Shown here: piece after piece, positions 4,298 to 27,178 of the stretch
Position numbering within the stretch: the stretch's first letter is position 1
How the letters are laid out: each line of letters starts with the position of its first letter
IMG/VR virus record: IMGVR_UViG_3300030060_003925
Span: 1-28,680 of that record
DNA from: a virus
DNA: 28,680 nt
Strand: one strand, 5' to 3'
The notes under the pieces: generated by a model
The model's database searches: none
What the model saw: only the letters and a program-made list of their open reading frames with translations
Told to the model about the DNA's origin: nothing
Position numbers and translations under genes: made by a program

Positions 4298-5338
4298 ATG
4301 AAAATCGCTGTCATAAACGACACACACTTTGGTGCAAGAAACGATCAAAAAGAATTTTTAGACTACTTCTTCAAGTTTTTTGATGAAGTATTTTTTCCGT
4401 ATGTACAGAAAAATGATATAACCGATGTCATCCATCTGGGTGATTTCATGGATAGACGTAAATTTGTAAACTTCAATACACTAAATCAAGTTAGAACTAG
4501 GATCATTCAGCCGTTGGAAAAGATGGGAGTGAAACTTCATTGTGTTTTGGGTAATCACGATACCTACTATCGCAACACAAATGATGTAAATTCTTTGGTA
4601 GAATTATTCTCAAAGTACGAAGGGTTCAATATAATTGATAAGCCTATGGTTTTGGATTTCGAGGGAATGTGTGTAGGTTTGGTTCCTTGGTTAACAAAAG
4701 AAAATTCCGACGAGTGTGTAGATTTTATCAAGTCATGTCCTTGTCCAATATTAGGTGGACATTTTGAACTAACTGGTTATGAGGTTATACGAGGAGTCAA
4801 GTTTGACGGGGGAATAGACGATTCTATTTTCAGAAACTATGAAATGGTAATGTCAGGTCATTTCCACGGAAGACAATCAAAAAATAATGTTCACTACTTA
4901 GGCACTCAGTATCAGATAACATTTTCTGATCTAGGTGAAGTTAAGGGATTTCATGTATTGGATACCAAAGATAGAAGCCTAACTTTTATAGAAAACCCAA
5001 ATGTTATGTTTCATGCTGTTGACTATAATGACACAGGAGTACATGATTGGAGAGATTTCGACTTCTCCAAATATGAAGGGTGTTATGTAAAGATAATGGT
5101 ACATAGGAAAACACAGCCTTTCTTGTTTGATCTTTTTGTAGATAATTTCTACAAAGCAAATGTGGCAAACTTAACGATCATGGAAGAGTTAGTAGAAGAA
5201 TCGAAAGAAGAAATGGTTGACATGGCGAAAGATACTGTTACACTTATTCATGAAGAAATAGATTCTTTAGAAACCGACAAGAAAGATGAAATCAAAAAAC
5301 TAATAAGTGATCTTTACATGGAGAGTTTGTCGCTGTGA
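4298..5338 (+). CDS. 47: gp47 recombination nuclease subunit (Mre11-like)
   Basis: With gp46, this calcineurin-like phosphoesterase forms the phage Mre11-Rad50-type complex that resects double-strand ends for recombination and replication. The 346-aa protein has all metal-binding motifs in order: DTH (residues 8-10), GD with FMDRR (48-54), GNHD (85-88), a GGH around 165 and SGHFHGR further on. Length equals T4 gp47 (about 340 aa). The C-terminal third is helical and charged, as expected for the gp46-binding region. It follows gp55 by three bases, with only a weak ribosome binding site, and overlaps the next gene by four bases. Confidence 0.96.
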   Translation: MKIAVINDTHFGARNDQKEFLDYFFKFFDEVFFPYVQKNDITDVIHLGDFMDRRKFVNFNTLNQVRTRIIQPLEKMGVKLHCVLGNHDTYYRNTNDVNSLVELFSKYEGFNIIDKPMVLDFEGMCVGLVPWLTKENSDECVDFIKSCPCPILGGHFELTGYEVIRGVKFDGGIDDSIFRNYEMVMSGHFHGRQSKNNVHYLGTQYQITFSDLGEVKGFHVLDTKDRSLTFIENPNVMFHAVDYNDTGVHDWRDFDFSKYEGCYVKIMVHRKTQPFLFDLFVDNFYKANVANLTIMEELVEESKEEMVDMAKDTVTLIHEEIDSLETDKKDEIKKLISDLYMESLSL

Positions 5339-5898
5339 ATATTTTTGTATTGGATGAAAAACCAACAACCGCCGCTCAGATGATGTGTGATAAGCATGTT
5401 GTTAAGATGATTGTAGAGTCAGCACAGATGCTGTCTACTGCTCATCGTGTTCTAGACGGAGAACAGTACACAGAGTTGTCTGCAAACAATCGTCGCATCA
5501 AAAGATGGAAGTCACCATACAAGTTGATGGAAGAAATCTTATACAAAGCATCCTTTGTTGGACACCCCTGTACACAATGGGTAATGGAAAATGATAAAAA
5601 TTATTACTGGTTAGCAGAACACGCATATGAACTATGCAGAGAATACACTCGCCGATATGGTAGAGTACATAAGACAGATGATATGATATCTCTTATTCGA
5701 TATCGTAAACCTGCAAACATTGCAATTGCAGATTCTATCACACCATTTGCACAAGCCATGCCCGAGGAGTATAAAAATGCAGATGCAGTAGAAGCGTATC
5801 GTGCATACTATCTCGGGGAAAAGACTAGATTTGCAAAGTGGAAAGATGGAAACATTCCAAGTTGGTGGAATCAAGAACAGGAAATGGTACTAACTTGA
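5335..5898 (+). CDS. Conserved phage protein between gp47 and gp46
   Basis: The 187-aa product starts at a GTG that overlaps the gp47 stop (GTGA), and its own stop overlaps the gp46 start. Its pattern is one I recognise as widespread in tailed phages but without an established function: MNIFVLDE.P..AAQ..CDKHVVKM..ESAQ.LSTAHR at the N terminus, H with tryptophan-rich W....NYYWL in the middle, EYTRRYGRVH, and FAQAMPEEY, then EKTRFAKW....PSWW at the end. The invariant Cys-Asp-Lys-His, His and Trp residues suggest an enzyme or nucleic-acid-binding protein. There is a loose likeness to the DenV-type pyrimidine dimer glycosylase layout, but I would not assign it. Its place inside the gp47/gp46 pair suggests a DNA repair or recombination job. 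Confidence 0.8.
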   Translation: MNIFVLDEKPTTAAQMMCDKHVVKMIVESAQMLSTAHRVLDGEQYTELSANNRRIKRWKSPYKLMEEILYKASFVGHPCTQWVMENDKNYYWLAEHAYELCREYTRRYGRVHKTDDMISLIRYRKPANIAIADSITPFAQAMPEEYKNADAVEAYRAYYLGEKTRFAKWKDGNIPSWWNQEQEMVLT

Positions 5899-7607
5899 TA
5901 GTTTTTAAAACATTACGATGGAAGAACTTTCTTTCTACGGGTAACGTATTTACTAAATTAGATTTAGTGAAACGAGATACTACGTTGGTTGCAGGAGAAA
6001 ACGGAGCAGGCAAATCTACAATGCTAGATGCTTTGACTTTTTCTCTGTTTGGTAAATCTTTTCGTGGTATTAACATACCACAACTTGTGAATAGTGTTAA
6101 TGATAAAGACTGCCTTGTAGAAATCGAGTTCACGATTGGGGAAAAAGAATACCTAGTCAAGCGTGGACTCAAACCAAAGATATTTGAAGTCTATGTTGAT
6201 GGAGAACTACTACCACAAGATTCTAAGTCAAAAGATTATCAGCGTATTCTGGAAGAACGAATCTTGAAGATGTCATACAAGTCATTCTGTCAGGTTGTCA
6301 TTTTAGGATCTTCTAACTACATACCCTTCATGAAACTTACCGCAGCAGATAGAAGATCAGTGGTTGAAAATCTATTAGACATTGATGTATTCTCTGTCAT
6401 GAATTCTTTACTGAAGGGTAGAGTTTCTAAATGTAAAGAAGAAATCCAATCCTTAAAAAATGAAGTTGAATTACTGAAAGATAAAGTAGACAACCAGAAG
6501 AAGTACATAGAAAAGATTAAGAATAGATCAAAGACTACCGTAGAGAAGTACAATTTAGAGATCAAGGAAACTCAAGATCAAATCAAAGACATAGACAATC
6601 AAATCTTAGTTCTTAGTAATTCTATTACAGGACTCATACAGAATACTCAAAACAAAAAATCTCTACAAAAAACTATGGACAAGTACAAAGATCTACGGAC
6701 ACAGATGTCTGTTAAGATAAAAAAGATAAATGATCAGATTGATTTTTATGAGAACAATGATGTATGTCCAACATGCGATCAATCCATAGACAGTGAACAT
6801 AAAGATTCTCTAATTAAAAAGAATGAAACTGAAAAGCAACCACTCGATGATGCATTGATTTCTATGGATCAGCAGATCAATGACTACATGGGAATGATCA
6901 GCGATGCAGAGGCACTTATAGATCAGTGTAACAAAATGCAAAGTAAGGTGAGTGAACTTCAGTCTTCTAAGAATGCTCATGAAAAGTATGTGAAAACTAT
7001 GGAGAGCAAGGTGCAAGATGTTCAGAAAGAAACACCAGAATCTTCTGAAGAAGAATCTATTCTTTTAAATCTAATTGAAGAGGGTACAAAAAAAGCAACT
7101 GATCATCAGGAAAAAAAGGAAGAGATGTATCAGTACGATATTGTTTCTGTTCTTTTGAAAGATAGTGGAATCAAATCAAAGATCATTAAGCACTACCTTC
7201 CGATTATGAATAAACTAGTAAACAAGTTTCTTACCTCTATGGATTTTTTCTGTCAGTTTACGTTAGACGAAACTTTTAACGAAACCATAAAGAGCAGACA
7301 TCGGGATGAATTTACCTATCATAGTTTCAGCGAAGGTGAGAGGTTGCGTATAGATTTGTCGTTGCTTCTTGCGTGGAGAGAAGTTGCACGACTAAAGAAT
7401 AGCGTCAATTGTAATCTTCTAATACTAGATGAAGTTTTTGATTCGAGTCTGGATGGTGGAGGAACAGAGGAGTTTATGAAATTGATTACGACTATGGGAA
7501 GTAGATCAAATATATTTGTAATCAGTCACAAATCAGATCAGTTGATTGATAAATTTTCTGGACAGATTCGATTTGAAAAGAAGAACAACTTCAGTAGGAT
7601 AAAGTAA
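5895..7607 (+). CDS. 46: gp46 recombination ATPase subunit (Rad50-like)
   Basis: This SMC-type ATPase partners gp47. I place the start at TTG 5895, overlapping the previous stop (TTGA), because the protein then begins IVFKTLRWKNFLSTG, as the family does. Upstream GTG at 5838 would only add residues that shadow the preceding gene. AGGA lies 12 bases upstream, a long spacing. The 570-aa protein (T4 about 560) has Walker A GENGAGKST (34-42), a long coiled coil interrupted by a zinc-hook CPTC (291-294), the ABC signature SFSEGE (from 477) and Walker B LLILDEVFD with D512 and E513. The ISHK sequence near the end is the switch histidine region. Identification is firm; only the start is uncertain. 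Confidence 0.95.
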   Translation: MIVFKTLRWKNFLSTGNVFTKLDLVKRDTTLVAGENGAGKSTMLDALTFSLFGKSFRGINIPQLVNSVNDKDCLVEIEFTIGEKEYLVKRGLKPKIFEVYVDGELLPQDSKSKDYQRILEERILKMSYKSFCQVVILGSSNYIPFMKLTAADRRSVVENLLDIDVFSVMNSLLKGRVSKCKEEIQSLKNEVELLKDKVDNQKKYIEKIKNRSKTTVEKYNLEIKETQDQIKDIDNQILVLSNSITGLIQNTQNKKSLQKTMDKYKDLRTQMSVKIKKINDQIDFYENNDVCPTCDQSIDSEHKDSLIKKNETEKQPLDDALISMDQQINDYMGMISDAEALIDQCNKMQSKVSELQSSKNAHEKYVKTMESKVQDVQKETPESSEEESILLNLIEEGTKKATDHQEKKEEMYQYDIVSVLLKDSGIKSKIIKHYLPIMNKLVNKFLTSMDFFCQFTLDETFNETIKSRHRDEFTYHSFSEGERLRIDLSLLLAWREVARLKNSVNCNLLILDEVFDSSLDGGGTEEFMKLITTMGSRSNIFVISHKSDQLIDKFSGQIRFEKKNNFSRIK

Positions 7608-9193
7608 TGAAAAATTTTTATGAACGAAATGATCATGTAATAGATCATGAAGTGAATGTGTTATTTGAAGAACTTTTAGATATGAACCCCGATCAGTTTC
7701 GTGATTGGGTTGTGCAAATGAGATCCGTAATTCAACAGTCTTGGGATGAGAATGGGTGTCCACCAAGAACAGGAAAAAATGAAGAGGATATCATATCACA
7801 GTTCAATAAACTTTCGGAATATCCCGTTCATAAATTTACTCACACAGATGAATTATCTGATGTTGATGACGATGTAATCATAAACAAAGTTAGAATCGGT
7901 GTAGAAGCAGATCAATGGTTCTCGAACATGTTCAAGACAAGAATCAACTACAGTGACACTGACAATGGATATTCGATTTATGATTTAGTAGCAGATGACG
8001 AAAGGTTGGATCGTGTAGTGAAGGGTGCTATGCGTCACATGAGAAGAGACTCATTCTATACCCACGCACTTTCTGCTATAAAAAATGATGCAAAGTATGG
8101 TATTGTCAGTGTCGATAGTGGCGAGGAATGGATGGAAGCATTTTTTGGTAGTCCAGAGATGTTCAAGGATCATGACTTCCTACTAGAACAAGTCGCAGTT
8201 CGTGAGGGCTTCAATACGGGTTACTTTCAAATTCAACAGTCGGACATTCTACAACTTACAAGAGAGCAAGTATTAGAATGGAAAGACAAGATGTCATATC
8301 GTCACTATTCTACGTTTGACATTGACAACATGGAAGAAGATAAGGTATACTCTATACGGATATATAAAAAGGGAAACAGGGTGTTTCCTGCTGCGTTTAA
8401 ATCTTTTAGAATTGGGTATATTCAACCTGCTGTGAATTTCCCACCAATGACGGCGAAATATTTATATGAGAGGTTCACAGAAGAGTTCAAAGGTCAAGAT
8501 CAAATTAATATCTACGATCCGTCGTCTGGATGGGGTGGTCGCATACTTGGTGCTATGGCCTGCCGCGATGATCGCATCATTCATTACATTGGTACTGATC
8601 CCAATCCTGATAATTTTTATGACGATGATAGCCGCTCTCGTTACTCTGATCTCGCTGATTTCTACAACACCAAGACTTATAGAGGAAATCCTTTCTTTTC
8701 CAAAACAAACAGTTACGAACTTTTTAAACTCGGTTCGGAAGTAATCCAACACAATGAAGACTTCAAAAAATACAAGGGTAAACTAGATCTTGTTTTTACA
8801 TCACCTCCGTATTTCAACAGAGAGGCATATAGCGAAGATGAGAATCAATCGTATAAGAAATATGGATCCTCGTATGAATCATGGAGAGATGGGTTTCTAA
8901 AACCAACACTGGAAACCTGTGCAGAATGGCTTAAACCAGACAGATACTTATTGTGGAACATTGCAGATCTTTTGATAAAGGGAGAGTATCTCCCCCTAGA
9001 GAAAGATTCAATTGATATACTAGCATCGGTTGGACTAGAGTATCAGTACACGTTAAAAATGGCTATGGAATCCATGCCGGGACAGAATAGAGTAGATGAG
9101 AATGGTATTCCTAAATGTAAAAACTATTGCAAGGTAGATGATAGATATTTAAAGTACGAACCAATTTTTGTGTTCAAAAAACAAAGGGATTAG
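7607..9193 (+). CDS. Putative DNA methyltransferase (N4-cytosine/N6-adenine type) with large N-terminal region
   Basis: The C-terminal half of this 528-aa protein looks like a SAM-dependent amino-methyltransferase acting on DNA. It has a motif I region DPSSGWGGRILGA starting at D304, and a motif IV FTSPPYFN with SPPY at 399-402. The order motif I then IV is that of the gamma class, and the SPPY form is common in N4-cytosine and some N6-adenine enzymes. Residues 1 to about 270 match nothing I recognise; they are charged and could hold target recognition or a second activity. The start overlaps the gp46 stop by one base (TAATG). It is not part of the T4 core and is inserted, with glutamine synthetase, between gp46 and rnh. 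It could protect phage DNA from host restriction. Target sequence is unknown. Confidence 0.8.
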   Translation: MKNFYERNDHVIDHEVNVLFEELLDMNPDQFRDWVVQMRSVIQQSWDENGCPPRTGKNEEDIISQFNKLSEYPVHKFTHTDELSDVDDDVIINKVRIGVEADQWFSNMFKTRINYSDTDNGYSIYDLVADDERLDRVVKGAMRHMRRDSFYTHALSAIKNDAKYGIVSVDSGEEWMEAFFGSPEMFKDHDFLLEQVAVREGFNTGYFQIQQSDILQLTREQVLEWKDKMSYRHYSTFDIDNMEEDKVYSIRIYKKGNRVFPAAFKSFRIGYIQPAVNFPPMTAKYLYERFTEEFKGQDQINIYDPSSGWGGRILGAMACRDDRIIHYIGTDPNPDNFYDDDSRSRYSDLADFYNTKTYRGNPFFSKTNSYELFKLGSEVIQHNEDFKKYKGKLDLVFTSPPYFNREAYSEDENQSYKKYGSSYESWRDGFLKPTLETCAEWLKPDRYLLWNIADLLIKGEYLPLEKDSIDILASVGLEYQYTLKMAMESMPGQNRVDENGIPKCKNYCKVDDRYLKYEPIFVFKKQRD

Positions 9194-9196
9194 ATT

Positions 9197-10288
9197 ATGA
9201 ATCAGCGAGTTAAATTAGATTACGTTTGGTTAGACGGCGGTGATGTTAAAAGCACTCGAAGTAAAACGAAATATACTCAATTAGACATCATTGAAAATGA
9301 TGACAATGGAAGACCTTCCATGAAGTCTATGAAAGATATTTTGCCACTCATACCAGATTGGTCTTTTGATGGATCTAGCACTAATCAGGCAGAGGGTAAC
9401 AGTAGTGATTTAGTTATCCGTCCAGTCAGGGTTGTAAGAAATCCGATAGAGAAGTTTAAGATCAATTCATTTATTGTTCTGTGCCAGGTGATGAATCCGG
9501 ACGGAACACCACACGAATCAAATACACGAAGTCAGTTGGAAATGTCCCTGAGAAAAAATAAACAAAATGGTATGATGTTCGGAATTGAACAGGAATATAC
9601 TATTATGAATAGGGATGGAACAGAACCGTTTGCTTGGCCTGATGAACCAGAAAAGCAAGGAAAATATTATTGTGGTGCTGGGAGCGATAAGGTGAGAGGA
9701 AGAGAAGTATGCGAGTCTCATGCAATCGCTTGTCTGGGTGCAGATCTTTTGTTTGAAGGAACAAACGCCGAAGTAATGCTTTCCCAATGGGAATATCAGA
9801 TAGGAGCCGGTGATGCGATCACAGTTTCGGATCATTTGTGGCTATCCAGATATATTTTAGATTTGCTTTCCGAGAGATATAATGTCTCGATCTCCTATGA
9901 TCCAAAGCCGGTTGAAGGAGATTGGAATGGCTCAGGCGCTCATGTAAATTTTTCAACAAAATACATGAGAGAGGATTCCAATATGGAGTATCTTCGGGTA
10001 TTATGTGAAGGTATGGGACAGGATCATAAAGACTGTATCTCCAACTACGGAGAAGGTAACGAGAGACGTTTGACGGGTGATCACGAAACTGCTCACATCG
10101 ATGAATTCTCTTGGGGTGAATCCGATAGGGGTGCTTCTATTCGCATCCCCCTGTCTACAATCGCAAGGAATGGTAAGGGACACTTGGAGGACAGAAGACC
10201 TTCTGCCAATATGGATCCCTATGAATGCTTGACTAGTTTGGTGGAGGCTGTTTCAAAGTCCCACCAAGAAATCTTAATTTCTACATAA
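9197..10288 (+). CDS. glnII: Glutamine synthetase, type II (GSII)
   Basis: This 363-aa protein is a full-length GSII, the decameric ATP-dependent enzyme making glutamine from glutamate and ammonia. GSII is best known from eukaryotes and some bacteria. Visible motifs: the N-terminal beta-grasp DWSFDGSST (54-62), GIEQEY with metal ligands E131 and E133, YYCGAGSDK (157-164), NAEVMLSQWEYQ with E192 and E199, WNGSGAH with H249, NERRLTGDHETA (288-299), SDRGASIRIP (309-318) and EDRRPSANMDP with E331 and R333 (331-341). All expected metal and substrate residues appear present, so it should be active. It follows the methyltransferase gene by three bases. I know of no T4 core equivalent; it is probably an auxiliary metabolic gene. 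A relative that ligates another amine is possible but less likely given the motif set. Confidence 0.93.
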   Translation: MNQRVKLDYVWLDGGDVKSTRSKTKYTQLDIIENDDNGRPSMKSMKDILPLIPDWSFDGSSTNQAEGNSSDLVIRPVRVVRNPIEKFKINSFIVLCQVMNPDGTPHESNTRSQLEMSLRKNKQNGMMFGIEQEYTIMNRDGTEPFAWPDEPEKQGKYYCGAGSDKVRGREVCESHAIACLGADLLFEGTNAEVMLSQWEYQIGAGDAITVSDHLWLSRYILDLLSERYNVSISYDPKPVEGDWNGSGAHVNFSTKYMREDSNMEYLRVLCEGMGQDHKDCISNYGEGNERRLTGDHETAHIDEFSWGESDRGASIRIPLSTIARNGKGHLEDRRPSANMDPYECLTSLVEAVSKSHQEILIST

Positions 10289-10305: not shown

Positions 10306-11070
10306 ATGGCGAGGTTGTCCGTGCAAAAAAAGAAAAGATCCAAGAAAAATTTGTTTGAAAGGGCTTATGGTAAGGAAGCCGACTTCACTCGTTTGGATCC
10401 TGAAGCGGATGGGTACGAAGATCATATCTATAATGGACTCTCTTGGTATAGAAATAATTCTACACCAAGGGATGAAAAGAGATGGACTCTAGAGTATTTG
10501 GTGAATAATGATTATTCTAGTGATGATGTCTCTTATGTAAAAACGATCTCCGTCAAACTTTTTGCTAACAAAGGTAGATACTTTAGAATGATGGACAGGG
10601 GTGCTGTTCTCGGTGAAGATAGAAAAACACCTCTCGAACAATTCATCAATAAGTGCCTAAGTGATGGAAAGATTAAGAAAGAATCTACTCCCCCAAAGAA
10701 GAGCGTTCAAGAATACATCAACGAACAGGTTGAGGAGTATCTCTCCGCACTTGAAATTGAATGGGACAATACTCTTACACATCTAATGAAGAAAGAGGTG
10801 GTAACATTCTCTATGTACTCTTGGTTAAAATCCAATAACGTAAAAACAGTACAGGTAAAGAGAATAGGTGAGTATTGGAAACCGATTGCAGAGGAACTAC
10901 TGTCTGCTATAAATAAAGAGGATCCTCAACTAGTTGAGGGTTACTCATATGTTGGGCGAGTGGTTCTCAAAAGAATGCATAAAACTCTAATGGAATGGAT
11001 ATCTGATTGTGAAAAGTTTCATCAAGAGAAAAGAGCAACGAGAAAAAAGAGAAAGAAAAAGGTTAAGTGA
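10306..11070 (+). CDS. Unknown basic protein
   Basis: I do not recognise this 254-aa protein. Both ends are strongly basic (VQKKKRSKKNLFERAYGKE near the start and RATRKKRKKKVK at the end), which suggests nucleic acid binding. The body is helical and charged, with several tryptophans (NGLSWYRNN, EWDNTL, MYSWLKSNN, EYWKPI, EWISDC). A good GAGGT ribosome binding site (10293-10297) lies eight bases before the ATG. It follows the glutamine synthetase gene and its stop overlaps the next start (GTGA). Its place between gp46 and rnh is where T4-like phages often keep helicase-loading and single-strand-binding accessory genes. I see no gp59 or gp32 signature. Confidence 0.75.
   Translation: MARLSVQKKKRSKKNLFERAYGKEADFTRLDPEADGYEDHIYNGLSWYRNNSTPRDEKRWTLEYLVNNDYSSDDVSYVKTISVKLFANKGRYFRMMDRGAVLGEDRKTPLEQFINKCLSDGKIKKESTPPKKSVQEYINEQVEEYLSALEIEWDNTLTHLMKKEVVTFSMYSWLKSNNVKTVQVKRIGEYWKPIAEELLSAINKEDPQLVEGYSYVGRVVLKRMHKTLMEWISDCEKFHQEKRATRKKRKKKVK
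10908..10915 (+). promoter_or_regulatory. Possible late promoter octamer inside the basic-protein gene
   Basis: An exact TATAAATA lies in codons of the upstream gene, about 150 bases before the small tail-fibre-like protein at 11067, which would suit late expression. In a sequence this AT-rich about two chance copies per strand are expected in the window, so support is weak. Confidence 0.2.
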
Positions 11071-11422: not shown

Positions 11423-12277
11423 ATGATTTTAATAGACAACAACCAACTAATACTGTCCAATCTTTTTCAACTAGAGAAACAGGGAATAGAAGATCCCGCA
11501 GAAAAAGAAAATATGCTGTTGCATATGGTTCTTAATTCTTATCGACTATATCGAACCAAATTCTCTAGAGAGTTTGGTGAACTAGTCATATGTCATGACT
11601 CTTCTAATTGCTGGAGGAAAGATCTTTTCCCAGAATATAAAGCAAATAGAAAGAAGGCTCAAAAGAAATCTGATGTGGACTGGACTGAAGTACACAACAT
11701 GATGGATTCTGTTAGAAGTGATATAGAAAAACATCTACCATATAAGAACATTAAGGTAGACAGAGCAGAAGCAGATGATATCATTTATGCTATGTGTAAA
11801 GAGTTCAATCAAGTCGAGAACATTCTTATCATTTCGAACGATAAAGATTTTCAGCAGTTACAGGTTTTTCCGACAGTGAAGCAATTCAGTCCGACAAAGA
11901 AAAAATACTTGGTATGCGAAAAACCTAATATGTTTTTACTTGATCACATTATTAGAGGTGATGCGTCGGATGGTGTTCCTAACATTCTCTCAGATGACGA
12001 TGTGTTTGTAACAGAAGATAAGAGACAGAAGAGGTTAACATCAAAAAGATTTGAAGAGATTTATGATTTGTATACTACAGGATCTGATATGGGTTCATAT
12101 TCCAGAAACTGGAATAGGAATGAAACTCTGATTGATCTATGCAAAGTGCCGTCTCATATCGTTGAACAGACGGTTAACTCATATAACAATAGCGAAACAC
12201 CAGACAGATCTAATCTGTTGAACTATTTCATAGAAAGAAAATTAAAAAATCTAATGGGGAGCATCGAGGAATTTTAA
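11423..12277 (+). CDS. rnh: RNase H / 5'-3' exonuclease of the FEN family (T4 rnh)
   Basis: T4 RNase H removes lagging-strand RNA primers and adjacent DNA. The 284-aa product shows the acidic active-site set of the family: D5 in LIDNNQ, HDSSNCWRKDLFPEYKANRK with D59 (58-77), RAEADD (114-119), and ISNDKDF with D140 and D142 (137-143). A later GDASDGVPNI segment corresponds to the helix-hairpin-helix metal site. The C terminus (ERKLKNLMGSIEEF) resembles that of T4 RNase H. The ATG at 11423 is the only start that keeps the first catalytic Asp close to the N terminus as in relatives, yet it has no ribosome binding site. The gene may be translated from a leaderless transcript made by the promoter right in front, or by read-through coupling. 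Confidence 0.92.
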   Translation: MILIDNNQLILSNLFQLEKQGIEDPAEKENMLLHMVLNSYRLYRTKFSREFGELVICHDSSNCWRKDLFPEYKANRKKAQKKSDVDWTEVHNMMDSVRSDIEKHLPYKNIKVDRAEADDIIYAMCKEFNQVENILIISNDKDFQQLQVFPTVKQFSPTKKKYLVCEKPNMFLLDHIIRGDASDGVPNILSDDDVFVTEDKRQKRLTSKRFEEIYDLYTTGSDMGSYSRNWNRNETLIDLCKVPSHIVEQTVNSYNNSETPDRSNLLNYFIERKLKNLMGSIEEF

Positions 12278-12487: not shown

Positions 12488-13186
12488 ATGATGACAAGTG
12501 AAACAATGAAACTCAGTAAATCAACAATGGATGTTCTAAAGAACTTTGCCTCCATCAATTCTAATATTCTGGTTAAACCCGGAAATACTCTTAGCACAGT
12601 ATCGCCTATGAAGAACCTGATGGGTAAGGCTAAGGTAGAAGAAACTTTTGATGTGGAATTTGGTATTTGGGATCTACACAAGTTCTTGGGAACCGTGTCT
12701 CTTTTCTCTGATCCACACCTGACTTTCGAAGATGGTAAGGTAGTGATCAGCAATGAAGCGAACACATCTCAGGTTGTTTATCACTATTCAGAACCCTCTC
12801 TTCTTACAACACCTCCTAGAGATGTTAATATGCCTGAGAGTGTTCTTAAATTTGAATTGTCTTCCTCTGAAATGTCAGAACTCATGAAGGCTTCTTCTGT
12901 TCTTCAACTACCAGATCTTAAGATTACAAACTCGGACGATGGTGATGAGGTTCTGTTGGTTCTCACGGACAAGGGTGACGTTACCAGCAATACTTATACA
13001 GTAAGTACAGTAGGAGACACAACTGTTTCTTCTTATTCGTTCTACTTCAAGGTGGATAGTTTGAAGATTCTTCCGGGGACATATACAGTCGAGATTAGTG
13101 ATCAGATGGTAAGTGAATTCACTAACGATGTCGAGGACATCACATACTGGATTGCATTGGAGAGCGATTCAACATCGGAGAAGTGA
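12488..13186 (+). CDS. 45: gp45 sliding clamp
   Basis: gp45 is the trimeric DNA clamp that tethers the phage polymerase and, in T4, activates late transcription. The 232-aa product aligns with T4 gp45 (228 aa): MKLSKSTMDVLKNFASINSN near the start, DVEFGIWDLHKFLGTVSLFSDP, a central LKFELSSSEMSELMKASSVLQLPDL, then LKILPGTYTVEIS and the end YWIALESDS. AAAGGA (12475-12480) lies seven bases before the ATG at 12488. The in-frame ATG at 12506 would begin exactly at MKLSKS, as in T4, but has no comparable site. The gene order 45, then 44 and 62, is kept as in T4, but two sugar-nucleotide genes separate clamp and loader. Confidence 0.94.
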   Translation: MMTSETMKLSKSTMDVLKNFASINSNILVKPGNTLSTVSPMKNLMGKAKVEETFDVEFGIWDLHKFLGTVSLFSDPHLTFEDGKVVISNEANTSQVVYHYSEPSLLTTPPRDVNMPESVLKFELSSSEMSELMKASSVLQLPDLKITNSDDGDEVLLVLTDKGDVTSNTYTVSTVGDTTVSSYSFYFKVDSLKILPGTYTVEISDQMVSEFTNDVEDITYWIALESDSTSEK

Positions 13187-13188
13187 TA

Positions 13189-14088
13189 ATGAAAACACTA
13201 GTTACAGGTGGTAGTGGTCTTGTAGGATCTACCATCCAGAGTGATTACAAACCCAGTCAAGATGATTTGGATCTGATGGATTATCGTTCGATTGTAGATT
13301 ACATCGACGATAATGGTATTGATTCAATCATTCATTGTGCCGCAAAGGTGGGGGGTATCAAGGCTAACTCCGAGAAGTTGGGTGAATTTTATCATGACAA
13401 TATGGTGATGAATACAAATGTTTTGGAGGCTGCTAGAGAAACGGGAGTGAACAAAGTTGTTTCTTTTATGTCCACTTGCGTTTTTCCAAACGACGCAGTG
13501 TATCCTTTAACAACAGATCAGATTCACTTGGGTGAACCACACTCTTCTAACTATGCATATGCATACGCAAAAAGAATGCTGGAAGTTCAGAGTAGAGCCT
13601 ATCGTGATCAGTATGGTTGTAATTTTGTAACTGTGATTCCATGTAATATATACGGTCCAGAGGATAACTATAATTTAGAATCTGGACATGTTATTCCATC
13701 ACTCATACATAAATGTCATAACGCAAAATGGTCTGGTAGTGACTTTGAAGTATGGGGAACTGGTGCAGCGTACCGTGAATTTATTTACTCCAAAGATGTT
13801 GGTTACATAGTTCAGTGGGTTCTTGAAAATTATAATGATCCAGAGCCTCTTATTATTTCTCCCGACGAAGAGATTAATATTGCGACATTAGCACAGGAGA
13901 TCGCATGGAGAATGGACTTTGATGGGAGTATAGTTTATAATGGGGAGATGGATGGACAAATAAAAAAACCATCAGATAACTCTAAACTAAAGTCTCTCTT
14001 ACCCGAATATAAATTTGTTCCGATTGAGATGGGGTTATCCCAGACGATTAAATACTTCAATGAAAATTATGGAGAGGTGAGAAAATGA
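13189..14088 (+). CDS. fcl: GDP-L-fucose synthase
   Basis: This short-chain dehydrogenase epimerises and reduces GDP-4-keto-6-deoxymannose to GDP-L-fucose using NADPH. The 299-aa protein shows the nucleotide-binding TGGSGLVGS (6-14), HCAAKVGGI (49-57), HDNMVMNTNVL (69-79), catalytic STC (96-98) matching the SSC of E. coli WcaG, and Y124xxxK128. I start at ATG 13189, eight bases after GGAG (13177-13180). A GTG at 13183 overlaps the clamp stop but lies too close to that site. Its stop overlaps the gmd start (ATGA), so the two are co-translated. It follows directly on the clamp gene, an unexpected place. Other 6-deoxysugar epimerase-reductases are possible, but the gmd partner supports fucose. 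Confidence 0.92.
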   Translation: MKTLVTGGSGLVGSTIQSDYKPSQDDLDLMDYRSIVDYIDDNGIDSIIHCAAKVGGIKANSEKLGEFYHDNMVMNTNVLEAARETGVNKVVSFMSTCVFPNDAVYPLTTDQIHLGEPHSSNYAYAYAKRMLEVQSRAYRDQYGCNFVTVIPCNIYGPEDNYNLESGHVIPSLIHKCHNAKWSGSDFEVWGTGAAYREFIYSKDVGYIVQWVLENYNDPEPLIISPDEEINIATLAQEIAWRMDFDGSIVYNGEMDGQIKKPSDNSKLKSLLPEYKFVPIEMGLSQTIKYFNENYGEVRK

Positions 14089-15074
14089 AAGCATTAATCA
14101 CTGGTATTAATGGACAAGATGGCTCATACTTAGCAGAGTTGTTACTCGAAAAAGGATATGAGGTTCATGGTATTCTGAAAAGAAATTCTGTATCAGAAAA
14201 CCAAACCACTCGAATCGATCATATCAGAAACTATCTACATCTGCATTATGGTGATCTTACAGATCTATCTTCTTTGATTTCTGTAATCAAGGAAGTCCAA
14301 CCAGATGAAATCTATAATCTAGCAGCACAATCTCATGTTAGAATTAGTTTTGATCAGCCTTACTATACTGGACTGACAACTGGACTCGGGACATTGAATG
14401 TCCTAGAGGCATGTAGATTGGTTTCACCGTCTTCTAAAATTTATCAAGCGTCTTCATCCGAGATGTTTGGTAATAACATTGATGAGGATGGTTATCAAAG
14501 AGAGACTACACCAATGAATCCGGTGAGTCCTTATGGTTGTGCTAAAGTTTATTCATATAATATTTCTAGGAACTATAGAAATTCTTATGGTATGTTCGTT
14601 AGCAATGGTATACTATTCAATCATGAGTCTCCCCGAAGGGGATCTAACTTTGTGACTAGTAAAATCGTAAAGGGTGCTTGTGCTATCGCAATGGGAAAAC
14701 AAGACAAACTTAGTTTGGGTAATCTAGAAGCAACCAGAGATTGGGGACATGCTCTTGATTATGTAAACGCCATGTGGATGATGCTTCAACAAGACACACC
14801 TGACGATTATGTTTGCTCTACCGGAGTCTCCCATAGTGTAAGAGATTGTTGTCAGCAAGTATTCTCTGCACTTGGATTAAACTATGAAGATCATGTTATA
14901 ATTGATCCGAGATTTTATCGTCCAGAGGAACTACGAGATCTTAAAGGTGACTCTACCAAGATACGAGAGGAACTGGGATGGAGTGAGACGTATACGTTTG
15001 AATCTATGATGAGTGAAATGATTGAGTATGAACTAGAGTTGGAGTATAAAACTTCACTCGATATTATTACATGA
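14085..15074 (+). CDS. gmd: GDP-mannose 4,6-dehydratase
   Basis: The enzyme converts GDP-mannose into GDP-4-keto-6-deoxymannose, the substrate of the preceding gene's product. The 329-aa protein is typical for Gmd: TGINGQDGSYLAELLL (6-21), RNSVSENQTTRIDHI near 33-47, NLAAQSHVRISFD (78-90), SSSEMFG (123-129) with the catalytic Ser/Glu pair, SPYGCAK with Y150 and K154, and LFNHESPRRG (177-186). It lies between fcl and gp44, overlapping fcl by four bases; its TGA is next to the GAGG ribosome binding site of gp44. Gmd is also the entry point to GDP-perosamine and GDP-rhamnose, so its product might feed the aminotransferase found further down as well. Confidence 0.95.
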   Translation: MKALITGINGQDGSYLAELLLEKGYEVHGILKRNSVSENQTTRIDHIRNYLHLHYGDLTDLSSLISVIKEVQPDEIYNLAAQSHVRISFDQPYYTGLTTGLGTLNVLEACRLVSPSSKIYQASSSEMFGNNIDEDGYQRETTPMNPVSPYGCAKVYSYNISRNYRNSYGMFVSNGILFNHESPRRGSNFVTSKIVKGACAIAMGKQDKLSLGNLEATRDWGHALDYVNAMWMMLQQDTPDDYVCSTGVSHSVRDCCQQVFSALGLNYEDHVIIDPRFYRPEELRDLKGDSTKIREELGWSETYTFESMMSEMIEYELELEYKTSLDIIT

Positions 15075-15081
15075 GGATAAA

Positions 15082-16029
15082 ATGACAAATAAATTTGATG
15101 AATATCTGTGGGTTGAGAAGTATCGTCCACGGAAAGTGAGTGATTGTATATTGTCCGAGAGTCTTCGGGAAACCTTTCAGCAAATGGTTGACGCCGAGGA
15201 GATGCAAAACCTACTACTGTCTGGTGGTGCGGGTTGTGGAAAGACAACGATTGCAAAGGCTATGTGTGAAGAACTTGGATGTGATTACATGGTGATCAAC
15301 TGTTCGGAGGATGGAAACATTGACACTCTGAGAACCAAGATTCGCAACTTTGCAAGCAGCGTGTCTATGTCCGGCGGTAAGAAAGTAGTAATCTTAGATG
15401 AGTTTGATTACAGTAATGCACAGAGTATGCAACCAGCACTTCGTGGTTTCATAGAAGAGTTCAGTAAGAATTGTAGATTTATTCTTACATGTAATTACAA
15501 GAATCGAATCATTGAACCGATTCATTCTAGATGCACATGTGTAGAATTTACTATCCCCGCACAAGAGAAACCTAACATCGCTAAGGGTTTCATGGACAGG
15601 GTTAAGTTTATACTCGATAGTGAAGGAGTTTCTTATGATGAGAAGGTTCTTGTCCAACTCATAATGAAGCACTTTCCGGACTTCAGAAGAACTATCAACG
15701 AACTACAAAGGTATTCCGTAGCAGGAAGTATTGATGTTGGTGTTCTTACCAACATAGGGGAGATTCATATATCGGATCTTATGAAGAGCATGAAAGATAA
15801 AGATTTTTCTGCTGTTCGTAAGTGGGTTGTGGATAATCTAGACAATTCACAAGTAGAATTGTTTCGCAGTATATACACTGGGTGCTATGAATATATGCAA
15901 CCATCTTCTGTACCCCAAGCAATTTTAATTATCGCAGAGTACCAGTATAAGTCAGCCTTTGTTGCAGATCAAGAAGTGAATCTTGCAGCGTGTTGTATTC
16001 AGTTAATGATGGAGTGTTCTTTCAAATGA
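15082..16029 (+). CDS. 44: gp44 clamp loader, large (ATPase) subunit
   Basis: gp44 is the AAA+ ATPase that, four copies with one gp62, opens and loads the gp45 clamp. The 315-aa protein has the family start LWVEKYRPRKVSD (9-21), Walker A SGGAGCGKTT (47-56), Walker B LDEFD with D106 and E107, and the SRC arginine-finger motif near 148 (PIHSRCTCVEF). Length matches T4 gp44 (319 aa). GAGG (15073-15076) serves as ribosome binding site. Its stop overlaps the start of a GroES-like gene, so the loader subunits are no longer adjacent as they are in T4. Confidence 0.96.
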   Translation: MTNKFDEYLWVEKYRPRKVSDCILSESLRETFQQMVDAEEMQNLLLSGGAGCGKTTIAKAMCEELGCDYMVINCSEDGNIDTLRTKIRNFASSVSMSGGKKVVILDEFDYSNAQSMQPALRGFIEEFSKNCRFILTCNYKNRIIEPIHSRCTCVEFTIPAQEKPNIAKGFMDRVKFILDSEGVSYDEKVLVQLIMKHFPDFRRTINELQRYSVAGSIDVGVLTNIGEIHISDLMKSMKDKDFSAVRKWVVDNLDNSQVELFRSIYTGCYEYMQPSSVPQAILIIAEYQYKSAFVADQEVNLAACCIQLMMECSFK

Positions 16030-16322
16030 GTAAGTTTTATCCAATCAGAGGCAAAGTTGCCGTACGAAGATCTGTTCAATCTGAATCAACCTCAGCCGGA
16101 GTGATCTATACCCCAAAAGAAAATGTTCACTATGCAAAGGGACAGGTGGTTTCTGTTGGACATCCCATACCACTATCCAATGGAACGATGGTTACACCAG
16201 AATACTATGATGGAGATTGGGTTATCTATAAACGAGAAGGTGTAGAACATACGATGGGTTTTGATATCATGGATCATGATGGTGTCGTTGCAATCATAGA
16301 AGAGGACACAGAGGTATCATGA
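16026..16322 (+). CDS. GroES-like co-chaperonin
   Basis: The 98-aa product starts at an ATG overlapping the gp44 stop, with GGAG about ten bases upstream. It fits the GroES fold: YPIRGKVAVRR (5-15) matches the first strands. SESTSAGVIYTPK (19-31) matches the mobile loop that docks on GroEL, with GVI at the place of the hydrophobic GIV/GGI tripeptide. AKGQVVSVG (37-45) matches the following strand, DGDWVIYKREGVE (62-74) the next, and DHDGVVAIIEE (83-93) the last. T4 uses gp31 for the same role, folding gp23 with host GroEL; this protein looks closer to bacterial GroES than to T4 gp31. It probably redirects host GroEL to phage capsid protein. It sits between gp44 and gp62, where T4 has no gene. 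Confidence 0.82.
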   Translation: MSKFYPIRGKVAVRRSVQSESTSAGVIYTPKENVHYAKGQVVSVGHPIPLSNGTMVTPEYYDGDWVIYKREGVEHTMGFDIMDHDGVVAIIEEDTEVS

Positions 16323-17182: not shown

Positions 17183-17902
17183 ATGAAACCGATAGTGATT
17201 AGTTTTTATAGTGATATTGAGGGTAAGGATTATTACTCTCGCAATGCAAAACGTCTAATGAAAGAGTTAGATGATCTCGATATTGAGTATGATATTCAAG
17301 AAAAAGAATCATTGGGTGATTACAGATCAAACTGTCTTAGTAAACCAAAATATATTTTGGATAAAATGAAAGAACTTAACCGTCCAGTTATATGGTTGGA
17401 TATTGATAGCAGAGTTCATAGAAAATTAAAGGCTTTTGATTCACTTCAATCCGGAGTTGACGTAGTGTTTTCTTCGTCCACAAAGGAGCAATTGGACGAG
17501 GTATCACAGACAGAACAGGCTGCTTTTATATCAGATGAATTCAAACTCAAGATGCTCATAAATGGAATGAAAGCATCTCCTTTATACTTTGGAAACACTC
17601 AACGATCAATTGACTTTCTTAACTCTTGGTGTAATGAGACTGAGAGTATGAACTTCAGACAAGATCCTAGATTTGATCATGAACCTCTTTTTCCTCTCTT
17701 CATGCAGTGGTTAAAATTAGAAGGAATTCGAATACAGTGCGTGGGTACTGACTACTGCACATGGCCCCGAAACACCACAACAAAAACTGTCATCACTATG
17801 GGACTTGCTGATTCTGAAACAAAGAAAGAAAAATTGCGTGAGATGGGACTTCAAGAAGAACACATAGAATGGCAATCTGGTGGAGATAAAGAACATGTCT
17901 AG
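17183..17902 (+). CDS. Putative DxD glycosyltransferase (nucleotide-sugar transferase fold)
   Basis: The 239-aa protein looks like a small GT-A glycosyltransferase. VIWLDIDSRVHR (69-80) holds a DxD metal site (D73, D75) of the kind seen in the nucleotide-diphospho-sugar transferase family PF03407. A later SPLYFGNTQRSIDFLNSW segment is the G.....A..F...W pattern of the same family. DPRFDHEPLF and CTWPRN follow, typical of the acceptor end. There is no signal peptide or membrane segment, so it would act in the cytoplasm. GGAG (17171-17174) lies eight bases before the ATG. It is the first gene of the glycan locus after regA. Sugar and acceptor are unknown. Confidence 0.75.
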   Translation: MKPIVISFYSDIEGKDYYSRNAKRLMKELDDLDIEYDIQEKESLGDYRSNCLSKPKYILDKMKELNRPVIWLDIDSRVHRKLKAFDSLQSGVDVVFSSSTKEQLDEVSQTEQAAFISDEFKLKMLINGMKASPLYFGNTQRSIDFLNSWCNETESMNFRQDPRFDHEPLFPLFMQWLKLEGIRIQCVGTDYCTWPRNTTTKTVITMGLADSETKKEKLREMGLQEEHIEWQSGGDKEHV

Positions 17903-18752
17903 TAAAGTTCTGGGAATGGGATTTCCTTTTCATCCCGATCACTCTTCTTGTTCTCTAAGAAAACCTAAAAACTTCAAGTGGACTTCTGACAAAACAGAGG
18001 AAGCAGCATTCGAGGTTTGGTTTGATAATTACATCCCAATGGGTATAGATCACCCCAAAGAAAACAAAGTAAAGGTTGGTTGGATATGTGAATCAAATTT
18101 CATCGTCCCTGAAGTAGTTTCATACGTTGAAAAAAAGATGGACTATGTTCTTTCAGCCTATGATTATATTTTTACTTGTGATAGAAGACTAAGAGAATTA
18201 TCAAACAGATTTATTTACTGTCCTCCGGGAAGTAACTTATCTTGGATATCAGAAGACAAGCAAAAAATTTACGATAAAACAAAGTTGTGTTCTATAATCG
18301 CATCAGCAAAAACTGCTACGCCTGGACATTTGTTGAGACATAAGGTAGCAGAAAAATATAAAGATAGGATAGATTTATATGGCGGTGTTTTGGGTTCAGA
18401 GAAGATCGGAACCGGGAATCTAACCACTACGTGGCACGATAAACAAGATGGACTTCACGATTACATGTTTTCGTTTGCGATAGAAAATGCATCATATGAA
18501 ACATACTTTACCGAAAAGATTATGGATTGTTTCACCACCGGAACGGTTCCAATTTATTGGGGTTCTCCAGACATAGGAGATCACTTCAATAAAGATGGTA
18601 TATTAATACTGGATGATAATTTTGATATAGATATATTGTCGAATGAATTATATAATAGTATGTTACCTGCTGTTGAAGAAAACTTTAAAATTGCTAGTAA
18701 CATGAAGATGGCTGATGATGTTCTATATGAATCCGTGGAGAGTTTAGCATGA
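17895..18752 (+). CDS. Fucosyltransferase-like protein (GT10 family)
   Basis: The C-terminal part of this 285-aa protein carries the GT10 alpha-fucosyltransferase signature: FSFAIENASYETYFTEK (192-208), then GTVPIYWGSPDIGDHF (216-231). This matches the F..a.ENs...dY.TEK......vPvyWG.P.i pattern that binds GDP-fucose. Its N-terminal half (VGWICESNFI, 61-70; YIFTCDRRL, 91-99) is consistent with the acceptor domain of the GT-B fold. I start at ATG 17895 (GGAG at 17882-17885); a GTG at 17880 lacks a ribosome binding site. It overlaps the previous gene by eight bases. GDP-fucose made by the nearby gmd and fcl is the likely donor. Acceptor unknown. Confidence 0.85.
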   Translation: MSSKVLGMGFPFHPDHSSCSLRKPKNFKWTSDKTEEAAFEVWFDNYIPMGIDHPKENKVKVGWICESNFIVPEVVSYVEKKMDYVLSAYDYIFTCDRRLRELSNRFIYCPPGSNLSWISEDKQKIYDKTKLCSIIASAKTATPGHLLRHKVAEKYKDRIDLYGGVLGSEKIGTGNLTTTWHDKQDGLHDYMFSFAIENASYETYFTEKIMDCFTTGTVPIYWGSPDIGDHFNKDGILILDDNFDIDILSNELYNSMLPAVEENFKIASNMKMADDVLYESVESLA

Positions 18753-20269
18753 AGGCGAACATAAAAAATGCTCACTACCTATTTCATAAAGATGGGATGG
18801 AGTTTACCGAACCTGTCGAAATTCATGTGAGTAGATTTGGTAATAATAATAAAAAGGGTGGACCTGTTCGCTTTGATAATCCTCATGCATTCAGGGTATA
18901 CATCAACGCAACGGAACCAGTCTCTTCTCAGAATAGGGAGGAGATATCGCATGTAATATCAAATGCAGATAACTATAATTTAATTCTCACAACAGATACA
19001 GAAATACTTAACTCGGTTTCTCATGCTGTATTTTTTCCATACGGAACTACTTGGTTAAATAAGGACAGAAGTAAGATTGATCATTCCGATGGACTGGGAG
19101 AGTATACAGAAGATCTAAATGATTTACATAAAAACAAAGAGTTTTCTGTTTCATTTCTAGGAACAAATCATAAACCAGGTCCAGATGGTTATAAGATGAG
19201 ACATGAACTTTGGGCGAAAGAACATGAAATCTCAGTCCCAAAGATTTTTTATAGCAGCACTCGACACCCCCTACCACTACCTCCAGGTCCACTCGGTGCA
19301 AGTAAACTTTTACCGGAAGATGATAAGAAACATCTTTTCAATTCGCAATTTAGTATTGCAATTGAAAGCACTTCTGTAGAGAATTATTTTTCCGAAAAAC
19401 TCATAGACTGTTTTATTACAAAAACGATTCCTGTCTATTGGGGATGTCCAAACATTGAGGAATTTTTTGATACAAGAGGAATGATCATAGTAAACTCTGT
19501 AGATGATATCATCAAGAAAGTTAACAAACTAACACCAACGTACTATGAAAAAAAGAAAAAGTATGTGGAAGAAAACTTTAAACTAGCACAGGAATATGCT
19601 AGATCTTTTACTGACAGAGTACAAGAGGTCATTATGAAAGAACTTCCAACGGTAGAGGAATCCGTGGAGGAGTCTCAAGATAATTTCTTACTGACTATAG
19701 GTATTGTTACCTTAAAGGAAAGAGAAGAAAAATTACTAAGACTTATCAATGCAATGAAACAACATACAACACCTGAAAATATGGAGTGTGTTGAATTATT
19801 GATAAATTCAGATGAAGGACAGAAAGCAGTAGGTCATAAAAGAAATGAAGTGCTACAAAAGGCTAGAGGCAAATTTGTATGTTTCGTAGACGACGATGAT
19901 CTAGTTTCTGATCACTACATAAATATGATCGTATCGCTGATTCGTGAAAATCCAAAACTAGATTGTATTGGTTTTATGGGTTTGTTTTACAATGATGGTA
20001 AACCACACATGAAGTTTAAACACGCGAATATGTACAGAGGAAACTATAAAGATTCTGAAGGTATTCAATATAGACCTGCAAATCATCTGAATCCTGTGAA
20101 GACAGATATTGCAAGACAAATTGGATTTCCGGAGAACAAAAATTTTGGAGAAGATTCTGATTATAGTGATCTTCTTCTGCGTTCTAATTTAATCCAAAAT
20201 GAAATGATAATAGACAATGAAGTGATGTATCATTATCTGTTTAGCAAAGCAGAATCAAAAACACATTGA
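18749..20269 (+). CDS. Fusion of GT10-like and GT2 glycosyltransferase domains
   Basis: This 506-aa protein combines two transferases. Residues 1 to about 300 resemble GT10 proteins, with FSIAIESTSVENYFSEK (from 201) and KTIPVYWGCPNIEEFF (about 223-238), like the preceding gene but only loosely similar elsewhere. Residues from about 313 (FLLTIGIVTLKEREEKLLRLI) form a GT2 GT-A domain with the DxD-type VDDDD (D381-D384), an NPVK segment and FGEDSDYSDLLLR, the catalytic ED motif, near the end. A short acidic linker (EESVEESQDN) joins the halves. No frameshift or stop separates them, so the fusion appears real. It overlaps the previous stop by four bases. The product could add two consecutive sugars to one glycan, one probably fucose. 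Confidence 0.85.
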   Translation: MKANIKNAHYLFHKDGMEFTEPVEIHVSRFGNNNKKGGPVRFDNPHAFRVYINATEPVSSQNREEISHVISNADNYNLILTTDTEILNSVSHAVFFPYGTTWLNKDRSKIDHSDGLGEYTEDLNDLHKNKEFSVSFLGTNHKPGPDGYKMRHELWAKEHEISVPKIFYSSTRHPLPLPPGPLGASKLLPEDDKKHLFNSQFSIAIESTSVENYFSEKLIDCFITKTIPVYWGCPNIEEFFDTRGMIIVNSVDDIIKKVNKLTPTYYEKKKKYVEENFKLAQEYARSFTDRVQEVIMKELPTVEESVEESQDNFLLTIGIVTLKEREEKLLRLINAMKQHTTPENMECVELLINSDEGQKAVGHKRNEVLQKARGKFVCFVDDDDLVSDHYINMIVSLIRENPKLDCIGFMGLFYNDGKPHMKFKHANMYRGNYKDSEGIQYRPANHLNPVKTDIARQIGFPENKNFGEDSDYSDLLLRSNLIQNEMIIDNEVMYHYLFSKAESKTH

Positions 20270-22087: not shown

Positions 22088-22938
22088 AAAAAGTAATATC
22101 AATGAGTTTGTGGGGAGACAAATCTGGGTATGTACTCGGAGCAATTTTAAATGCTGACATAGCAGAGGAATTGTTTCCCGATTGGATCTGTCGATTCTAC
22201 GTTGCACCAACGGTTCCAGAAGCAGCGGTAAAAGAACTTGCGTCCAGAGATAATGTAGAAATCATTATGATGGAAGAGGATGTAAGTTGGAATGGTATGT
22301 TCTGGAGATTCTATGCTGCGGGTGATCCCGAAGTTGATGTCATGATTTCAAGAGACACCGACTCTAGGTTAAATGTCAGGGACAAAGCCGCGGTGGATGA
22401 GTGGTTAGCAAGTGATAAAGATTTTCATATCATGAGAGATATGTGTCAGCATGGGTGGAACATCTGTGGTGGTATGTGGGGTGCAAGGAACGGTGTGGTT
22501 AAAAATATCGTAGGAATGATCAATGGTTACTCTAGGAAAGAGAAGCAGAACGCACATGGTATTGATCAGCAGTTCTTAGCAACAGAAATTTATCCATACG
22601 TTGTTAAACACAAAGCGTTCATACATGACGATTGGTTCCCCCAAAATTATAGAGGACTACACTTTCCATATCAAAACGAAGATAAACGTCCTTTTCCCAT
22701 TCCAAGACTGCGAGGAGAGGGCTGGTGGAACACCGAGTTCCCAGAGTGGCATAGTGGCATCGAAGATGATGTAGAGAACTACCCGTTCTGGCAACCACCA
22801 GATGGTCCGGGACACTGTTTCTTGAAGTGTCCTGCGTGTGGTGTGTTTCACGACAATGATTATATTGGTAAGCAACGTATGCCTACCGAGGCAGATAGGA
22901 AAAAGTATGAACATGTAATGAAGGAGTTATCAGGATGA
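22084..22938 (+). CDS. SLWGD-family paralogue 3, putative DxD glycosyltransferase with cysteine-rich tail
   Basis: Third member, 284 aa from the ATG overlapping the previous stop (ATGA); a longer in-frame start at 22057 would only shadow the gene before. MKKVISMSLWGDK, FPDWICRFYVAPTVP, WNGMFWRFYAAGDPEVDVMISRDTDSR (DxD site intact), AVDEWLA, HIMRDMCQHGW and CGGMWGARNG are shared. The C terminus differs from the other two: it ends with HCFLKCPACGVFHDNDYIGKQ, where cysteines and histidine (CxxxCxxC....H) could bind zinc. NAHGIDQQFL is equivalent to GVDQLFL in paralogue 2. Probably a glycosyltransferase; donor and acceptor unknown. Confidence 0.82.
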   Translation: MKKVISMSLWGDKSGYVLGAILNADIAEELFPDWICRFYVAPTVPEAAVKELASRDNVEIIMMEEDVSWNGMFWRFYAAGDPEVDVMISRDTDSRLNVRDKAAVDEWLASDKDFHIMRDMCQHGWNICGGMWGARNGVVKNIVGMINGYSRKEKQNAHGIDQQFLATEIYPYVVKHKAFIHDDWFPQNYRGLHFPYQNEDKRPFPIPRLRGEGWWNTEFPEWHSGIEDDVENYPFWQPPDGPGHCFLKCPACGVFHDNDYIGKQRMPTEADRKKYEHVMKELSG

Positions 22939-23690
22939 ATTTACAAGACATAGCACTGACTAGTTACAACTCACAAGATGGAGATAAGCATAAGCACCAT
23001 TTTCAGGGAACGACTCATTTCCAAAGATATCAAAAGCATCTTGAAATTTTCAAGGATGATACTTTTAATTTCTTGGAGATAGGGATAAGTGCAGGACATT
23101 CGCTACATGTGTGGGAAGCATTTTTTAAAAATGCAACAATATACGGAGTAGACATAGCAAATAAAAGTCAACACGCAAGAGACAGAATCAAAACAAGAAT
23201 GGGAAATCAAATAGACGATACATTCATGAATTCTGTAGGAGAAGAGGCAGGAAAGTTCAAGGTAATTCTTGATGATGGATCCCACCTAGGCGAACACATG
23301 ATACACACACTGAAAACGATGTGGAAGTTTTTAGAACCCGGAGGTTTTTACATCATAGAGGACATGGGAGCAACTAGAGATAACAGCATACCATTAAAAC
23401 ATTGGCCTGGATGGAAAGAAGGTGGTTTCTCTGACTTAGCAACAGAGGATAAGTTCCGAGAAACTGATAATCAATGGGGTGGATTGTATGATAACACAAA
23501 GAGTAGAGATGATATTGATAAACTGATAATCGAGTGCATGGAATCTATGGACAATAATCTATATAGAGGTCCAGAAAATCCTGCACTACCAACCGAGAAC
23601 TTTTTTACCTCTCCTCTGGGAGACTATCCGGTTGAGTGTATTACTTATTATCCTGCCGTTATTATAATACAAAAGGCTTTAAACAAATGA
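22935..23690 (+). CDS. SAM-dependent methyltransferase, probable sugar O-methyltransferase (MycE/CmcI-like)
   Basis: This 251-aa class I methyltransferase has motif I LEIGISAGHS (47-56), the acidic residue D73 after strand 2 (GVDI), DDGSHLGEH (113-121) and LEPGGFYIIEDM (133-144). The DDGSH plus ED pattern is typical of the metal-dependent sugar O-methyltransferase and cephalosporin-hydroxylase-like family (MycE, TylF, CmcI). The N terminus has several histidines (KHKHHFQGTTHFQRY). AAGGAG eight bases upstream supports the start, which overlaps the previous stop. In this locus it probably methylates a sugar hydroxyl of the glycan, perhaps as a cap that stops chain growth. Substrate is inferred from context only. 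Confidence 0.82.
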   Translation: MNLQDIALTSYNSQDGDKHKHHFQGTTHFQRYQKHLEIFKDDTFNFLEIGISAGHSLHVWEAFFKNATIYGVDIANKSQHARDRIKTRMGNQIDDTFMNSVGEEAGKFKVILDDGSHLGEHMIHTLKTMWKFLEPGGFYIIEDMGATRDNSIPLKHWPGWKEGGFSDLATEDKFRETDNQWGGLYDNTKSRDDIDKLIIECMESMDNNLYRGPENPALPTENFFTSPLGDYPVECITYYPAVIIIQKALNK

Positions 23691-27176: not shown

Positions 27177-27178
27177 AC

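Follow-up and report, generated by a model that had tools for sequence, protein, structure and literature searches.

A T4-like phage carries, inside its replication block, a complete type II glutamine synthetase (GSII) that likely makes glutamine from glutamate and ammonia during infection, as judged from its residues and predicted structure. The window, by which we mean the whole stretch of DNA analysed, is an IMG/VR fragment of 28,680 bases (IMGVR_UViG_3300030060_003925) that encodes a tail tube, UvsY, UvsW, a late-transcription sigma, gp47/gp46 (SbcD/SbcC), RNase H, gp45, gp44, gp62 and RegA. These T4-like hallmarks flank the glutamine synthetase (GS) gene on both sides, placing it in the 46-rnh-45-44-62-regA block (Table 1). 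Among isolated phages, gp44 comes nearest to that of OM43 phage Melnitz (58.7%), then to that of Pelagibacter phage Mosig (56.7%) and then to those of cyanophages. An earlier sequence-only reading had put GS between a DNA methyltransferase and a basic protein in a block otherwise devoted to DNA metabolism. The two neighbours stand as described; the wording on the block is slightly overstated, given two epimerase/dehydratase genes and a GroES-like gene in the same block. Translation of GS is probably coupled to that of the methyltransferase-like gene, because an AAAGGGA motif spans the short gap between them.

Table 1. Features of the window and of related viral loci (locus handles precede positions that lie outside the window).
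Feature	Position	Strand	Basis
gp46/SbcC-like recombination nuclease subunit, upstream landmark	5838..7607	+	
Methyltransferase-like protein, 528 aa; C-terminal half with DPSSGWGG and SPPY motifs (PF01555)	7607..9193	+	
Likely ribosome-binding site AAAGGGA, spanning 3-bp gap to upstream gene	9180..9196	+	Sequence, inferred
Type II glutamine synthetase (GSII), 363 aa, ATG start	9197..10288	+	ORF, homology, predicted fold
Basic protein, 254 aa, pI 9.45, phrog_11903; other boundary of cargo slot	10306..11070	+	
Conserved small protein, 106 aa	11067..11387	+	
T4 RNase H-like 5'-3' exonuclease, downstream landmark	11423..12277	+	
gp45 sliding clamp	12488..13186	+	
Two nucleotide-sugar epimerase/dehydratase genes, cargo between gp45 and gp44	13183..15074	+	
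gp44 clamp loader large subunit	15082..16029	+	
GroES-like gene	15990..16322		
Ammonia site	D58 of window GS		By homology
Metal sites	E131/E133/E192/E199/H249/E331 of window GS		By homology
Catalytic base	E297 of window GS		By homology
Phosphate/glutamate residues	R311/R316/R333 of window GS		By homology
Thioredoxin-fold-GSII fusions	L007:6691-8130, L008:4738-6171, L011:7671-9068 and 22 others		
Pseudo-GS lineage, same slot	L109:6608-7831; L209 matches 5001-6221; L110, L112-L117, L120, L122, L209-L220		

The assignment to class II is borne out by comparison with solved structures. The best match of the window protein is Streptomyces coelicolor GSII (4bax; 305 bits, E 6e-90, near full length), followed by plant and animal GSII, whereas similarity to class I GS is weak (best E 1e-11). 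In Pfam, Gln-synt_C scored above its cut-off and Gln-synt_N slightly below (31.2 vs 33.4 bits). The C-terminal adenylylation segment of class I, which carries the adenylylated tyrosine, is absent: the window protein stops at residue 363, shortly past the region that aligns with class I. Identity to bacterial GSII was 44-49%.

All seven active-site residues named in the sequence-only reading (E131, E133, E192, E199, H249, E331 and R333) are present in the window protein, as are D58, E297, R311 and R316. These eleven positions are invariant in an alignment of 25 viral sequences, and the same set was found in 80 of 80 cellular GSII examined, save for one masked residue. An AlphaFold2 monomer model built from the 25-sequence alignment (pLDDT 93.6, pTM 0.93) recovered the GS fold, with a beta-grasp N-domain and a catalytic C-domain. 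Foldseek aligned it to 4bax with TM scores of 0.88/0.93 and to human, maize and yeast GSII with 0.83-0.89, and the model superposes on fly GSII too. The window protein thus shares its fold, length and all active-site residues with 4bax and the eukaryotic enzymes. Unlike cellular GSII, the viral sequences carry consistent swaps beside the metal ligands (S196 for G, Y200 for F, S246 for A and V/I250 for T), which count against an ordinary synthetase. The gene is under purifying selection: comparison with its counterpart on a second contig, L001, gave dN 0.076 and dS 1.03 (NG86), a dN/dS of about 0.07 (0.12 by LWL85). Sequence, model, residue conservation and dN/dS together give good support to a genuine and probably active GSII.

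We placed the window protein in a tree of 77 GSII sequences, comprising a virus-only set of 34, 29 cellular sequences (two of them from the PDB) and 14 other viral rows. It clustered with the GS of locus L051 (100/100 support), and the virus-only set, which includes both, split from the cellular and other viral rows with 99/95 support; as the trees are unrooted, 'virus-only set' denotes one side of a branch. A quick tree of 126 rows gave the same picture. Phylogeny, which the sequence-only reading had put forward as a check, therefore sets the window GS apart from all cellular GSII sampled, the cellular set being the 80 best matches to a viral profile, beyond which a closer cellular relative may exist. 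Taken together, the viral GSII sequences require at least three virus-cell changes. Recent acquisition from a host was discarded as an explanation, no close cellular relative having been found (the nearest was about 45-50% identical), and this branch appears to have long resided in viruses rather than to have been freshly copied from hosts.

Phage-borne GS is not a new idea, and the window gene adds one more example. The rarity implied by the sequence-only reading did not hold: at least 595 matching GSII stretches occur in IMG/VR, making the gene a frequent one on contigs of uncultured viruses, and several reports count glnA among viral auxiliary metabolic genes (PMC9083009, PMC10721903, PMC7532657, PMC13037316, PMC9636769), as does a further survey (PMC12448302). 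The first five resemble the present case in that they describe a phage contig bearing GS and infer that the gene serves ammonia assimilation; the passages covered do not state GS class, locus, phylogeny, thioredoxin fusion or pseudoenzyme. Huge uncultured phages (LR756501, LR756503, LR756502 and LR745206) also encode full-length GSII relatives, 40-46% identical to the window protein, but differ in having genomes of 635-735 kb.

If active, the window GSII would use ATP to make glutamine from glutamate and ammonia inside the infected cell while DNA is being replicated. Because it belongs to class II, it should assemble as an enzyme of its own, probably decameric, and should ignore the adenylylation by which the host controls class I GS; the escape from GlnE/PII control proposed from the sequence is plausible for a GSII lacking the adenylylation segment. 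The added glutamine would go first to the nucleotide-synthesis amidotransferases, with amino-sugar and protein synthesis as secondary uses. The link to nucleotide supply, also proposed earlier, gains indirect support from a second viral lineage of this branch (L015, L025, L034, L041 and others), in which GS lies between primase and ThyX, with ribonucleotide reductase (RNR) nearby. In pelagiphage-SAR11 systems, infection induces host glnA, gltBD and amt (PMC12753301). Set against glutamine synthesis as the role, many close phages do without GS. Were the enzyme active, uncultured T4-like phages would carry into the cell a route of ammonia assimilation of their own, one expected to lie beyond host class I control.

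Some members of the viral branch depart from cellular GSII further still, being fused to another fold or apparently catalytically dead. In 25 viral GS-like sequences, out of 118 distinct ones, the N-terminus is lengthened by an extension bearing CxxC and TPxF motifs, which none of the 80 cellular sequences has. The window protein lacks this extension. The fused forms occupy the slot in which the window GS lies. Within the extension CGWC, C69, P72 and C84 are invariant. The Pfam Thioredoxin family was matched by all 14 fused members scanned (best E 4.9e-6, many below the curated cut-off), and a profile of the domain matched TXNDC5 and thioredoxins in the PDB (E 6e-5 and weaker), modest similarities that suggest a thioredoxin fold. 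The fusion requires two changes on the 77-sequence tree, and may place these enzymes under redox control. We found nothing relevant on viral GS fused to glutaredoxin or thioredoxin in the open-licence literature, which is weak evidence of absence.

A second group of relatives, found in L109, L110, L112-L117, L120, L122 and L209-L220 with some contigs shared between these sets, occupies the same slot as the window GS and is about 34% identical to it. Here E133, E192, E199, H249, N251, S253, E297 and R316 are replaced, while E331 and R333 are retained. The reading frames are nevertheless intact, the members' identity to L109 ranges over 59-100%, and dN/dS in pairwise comparisons stays far below 1 (L122-L116, for instance, gives dN 0.096 and dS 0.97), although in distant pairs, with synonymous sites near saturation, only the lowness of the ratio is readable and not its exact value. 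As metal and catalytic residues are lost and the sequence is conserved, the lineage is probably a retained pseudoenzyme, its loss of activity being read from the residues. A search of the open-licence literature for GS pseudoenzymes in viruses likewise yielded nothing relevant, again weak evidence of absence.

The conservation of this sister lineage without catalytic residues implies that the GS scaffold can have another use. The window protein itself might act mainly by binding, for instance by joining host GS subunits in mixed assemblies or by tying up a nitrogen regulator, as the conserved pseudo-GS in the same slot would suggest; we regard this as quite unlikely, since binding would not require catalysis and the window GS keeps every catalytic residue under purifying selection. 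A broader proposal, unlikely though worth stating, is that the viral branch provides a multi-use scaffold, serving as an enzyme, as a redox-controlled fused enzyme or as a dead protein that would manipulate host nitrogen control, for instance through co-assembly with host GS or by tying it up. The fused and pseudoenzyme relatives offer a natural comparison between GS folds put to catalysis, redox sensing or interference, and the wider interest lies in this branch, with its fused and inactive forms, more than in the window gene itself.

The genomic context of GS was examined through its upstream neighbour. A search with the 528-aa protein yielded 80 viral loci (L050-L128), over which it is 65-93% identical. 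A structure model shows a methyltransferase fold, and the conserved N-terminal ~230 aa had no recognised or informative relative; isolated phages match the protein solely over the methyltransferase part, no record in the phage collection covering its full length. Among the 72 loci with a downstream landmark, GS follows the 528-aa gene in 13 and precedes it in 6, a GS-like protein whose active site is broken occurs in 10, and about 43 have no GS; the loci partly overlap between searches, so these are counts of contigs sampled and not frequencies. In four slots without GS (L062, L068, L069 and L124) an NAD-dependent epimerase-like gene takes its place, and in another (L058) a 264-aa protein does. 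Isolated Kyanoviridae, which are marine T4-like phages, carry metabolic cargo in their 46-45-44 region as the window does, namely an NAD-dependent epimerase, S-adenosylmethionine decarboxylase, 2OG-Fe(II) oxygenases and a CobS-like gene, but none of the three isolates examined has GS or the 528-aa methyltransferase-like gene there. The methyltransferase-like gene is therefore the constant partner of the slot and GS is optional cargo, as both the varying slot contents and the metabolic genes of the isolates indicate. The GS gene has two marks of an auxiliary gene: it varies among close relatives outside the conserved core, being missing from those 43 or so loci with the same flanks, and it is a metabolic gene flanked by viral genes in a genuine viral genome.

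Adjacency might instead be taken to mean that GS is a GS-fold ligase that couples glutamate to an amine other than ammonia (polyamine, nucleotide or modified base), together with the methyltransferase-like protein and sometimes a PLP enzyme. The methyltransferase-like gene is adjacent or near in most GS-bearing T4-like loci, PLP-fold-II enzymes sit beside the pair in L020-L028 and L031/L037/L047, and the substitutions at 196, 200, 246 and 250 lie close to the active site. Yet the neighbour does not imply joint function, because it is without GS in about 43 of the 72 informative loci, and the ThyX/RNR lineage has GS without the methyltransferase; co-occurrence is not obligate. A joint DNA-modification pathway was accordingly rejected as the default. 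Moreover, D58 and E297 are kept in all active-type sequences, giving no support to the unusual acceptor substrate suggested from the sequence, and with ordinary cellular GSII the viral proteins share 44-49% identity, leaving such a ligase highly doubtful. As a glutamine-forming enzyme, GS would travel as optional cargo of the replication block, outside the methyltransferase's own pathway.

A bacterial glnA fused onto a phage contig by misassembly or contamination is extremely improbable, for although the record is only a fragment, its junctions recur in L001 and L051, its GS falls inside the virus-only branch, and GS does not stand out from the neighbouring genes in codon usage or third-position GC. 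L001 is an independent contig with identical gene order (GS 86%, flanking genes 92-94% identical to the window), which renders unlikely the chimera that the sequence-only reading had named as a way for its claim to fail. L051 also keeps the gene order, at 74% identity for GS and 92% for the methyltransferase-like protein. Control of GS by a glutamine riboswitch was considered and dropped, Rfam scans having returned no such match in the window (E up to 1) or in nine related loci (gathering cut-off); nor did other Rfam elements match in this set, and both absences count against the glutamine-synthesis role.

Several further features were seen in these loci. PLP-dependent (PALP family) enzymes adjoin the methyltransferase-like gene at L020:7234-7983, L037:5403-6359 and L047:4919-5896, and several PALP-bearing lineages sometimes have a second N6/N4 methyltransferase too. 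Between the gp47 and gp46 homologues of the window, an ORF at 5335-5898 matches a pyrimidine dimer DNA glycosylase domain (PF03013, phrog_624). Three neighbouring ORFs at 17183-20269 (239, 290 and 506 aa) form one similarity cluster, the second matching glycosyltransferase family 10 and the third phage glycosyltransferase PHROGs. Finally, a sugar-modification cluster at 22935-28078 comprises methyltransferase, formyltransferase, Gfo/Idh/MocA-like, DegT-type aminotransferase and glycosyltransferase-like genes; the making of amino sugars would draw on glutamate or glutamine nitrogen.
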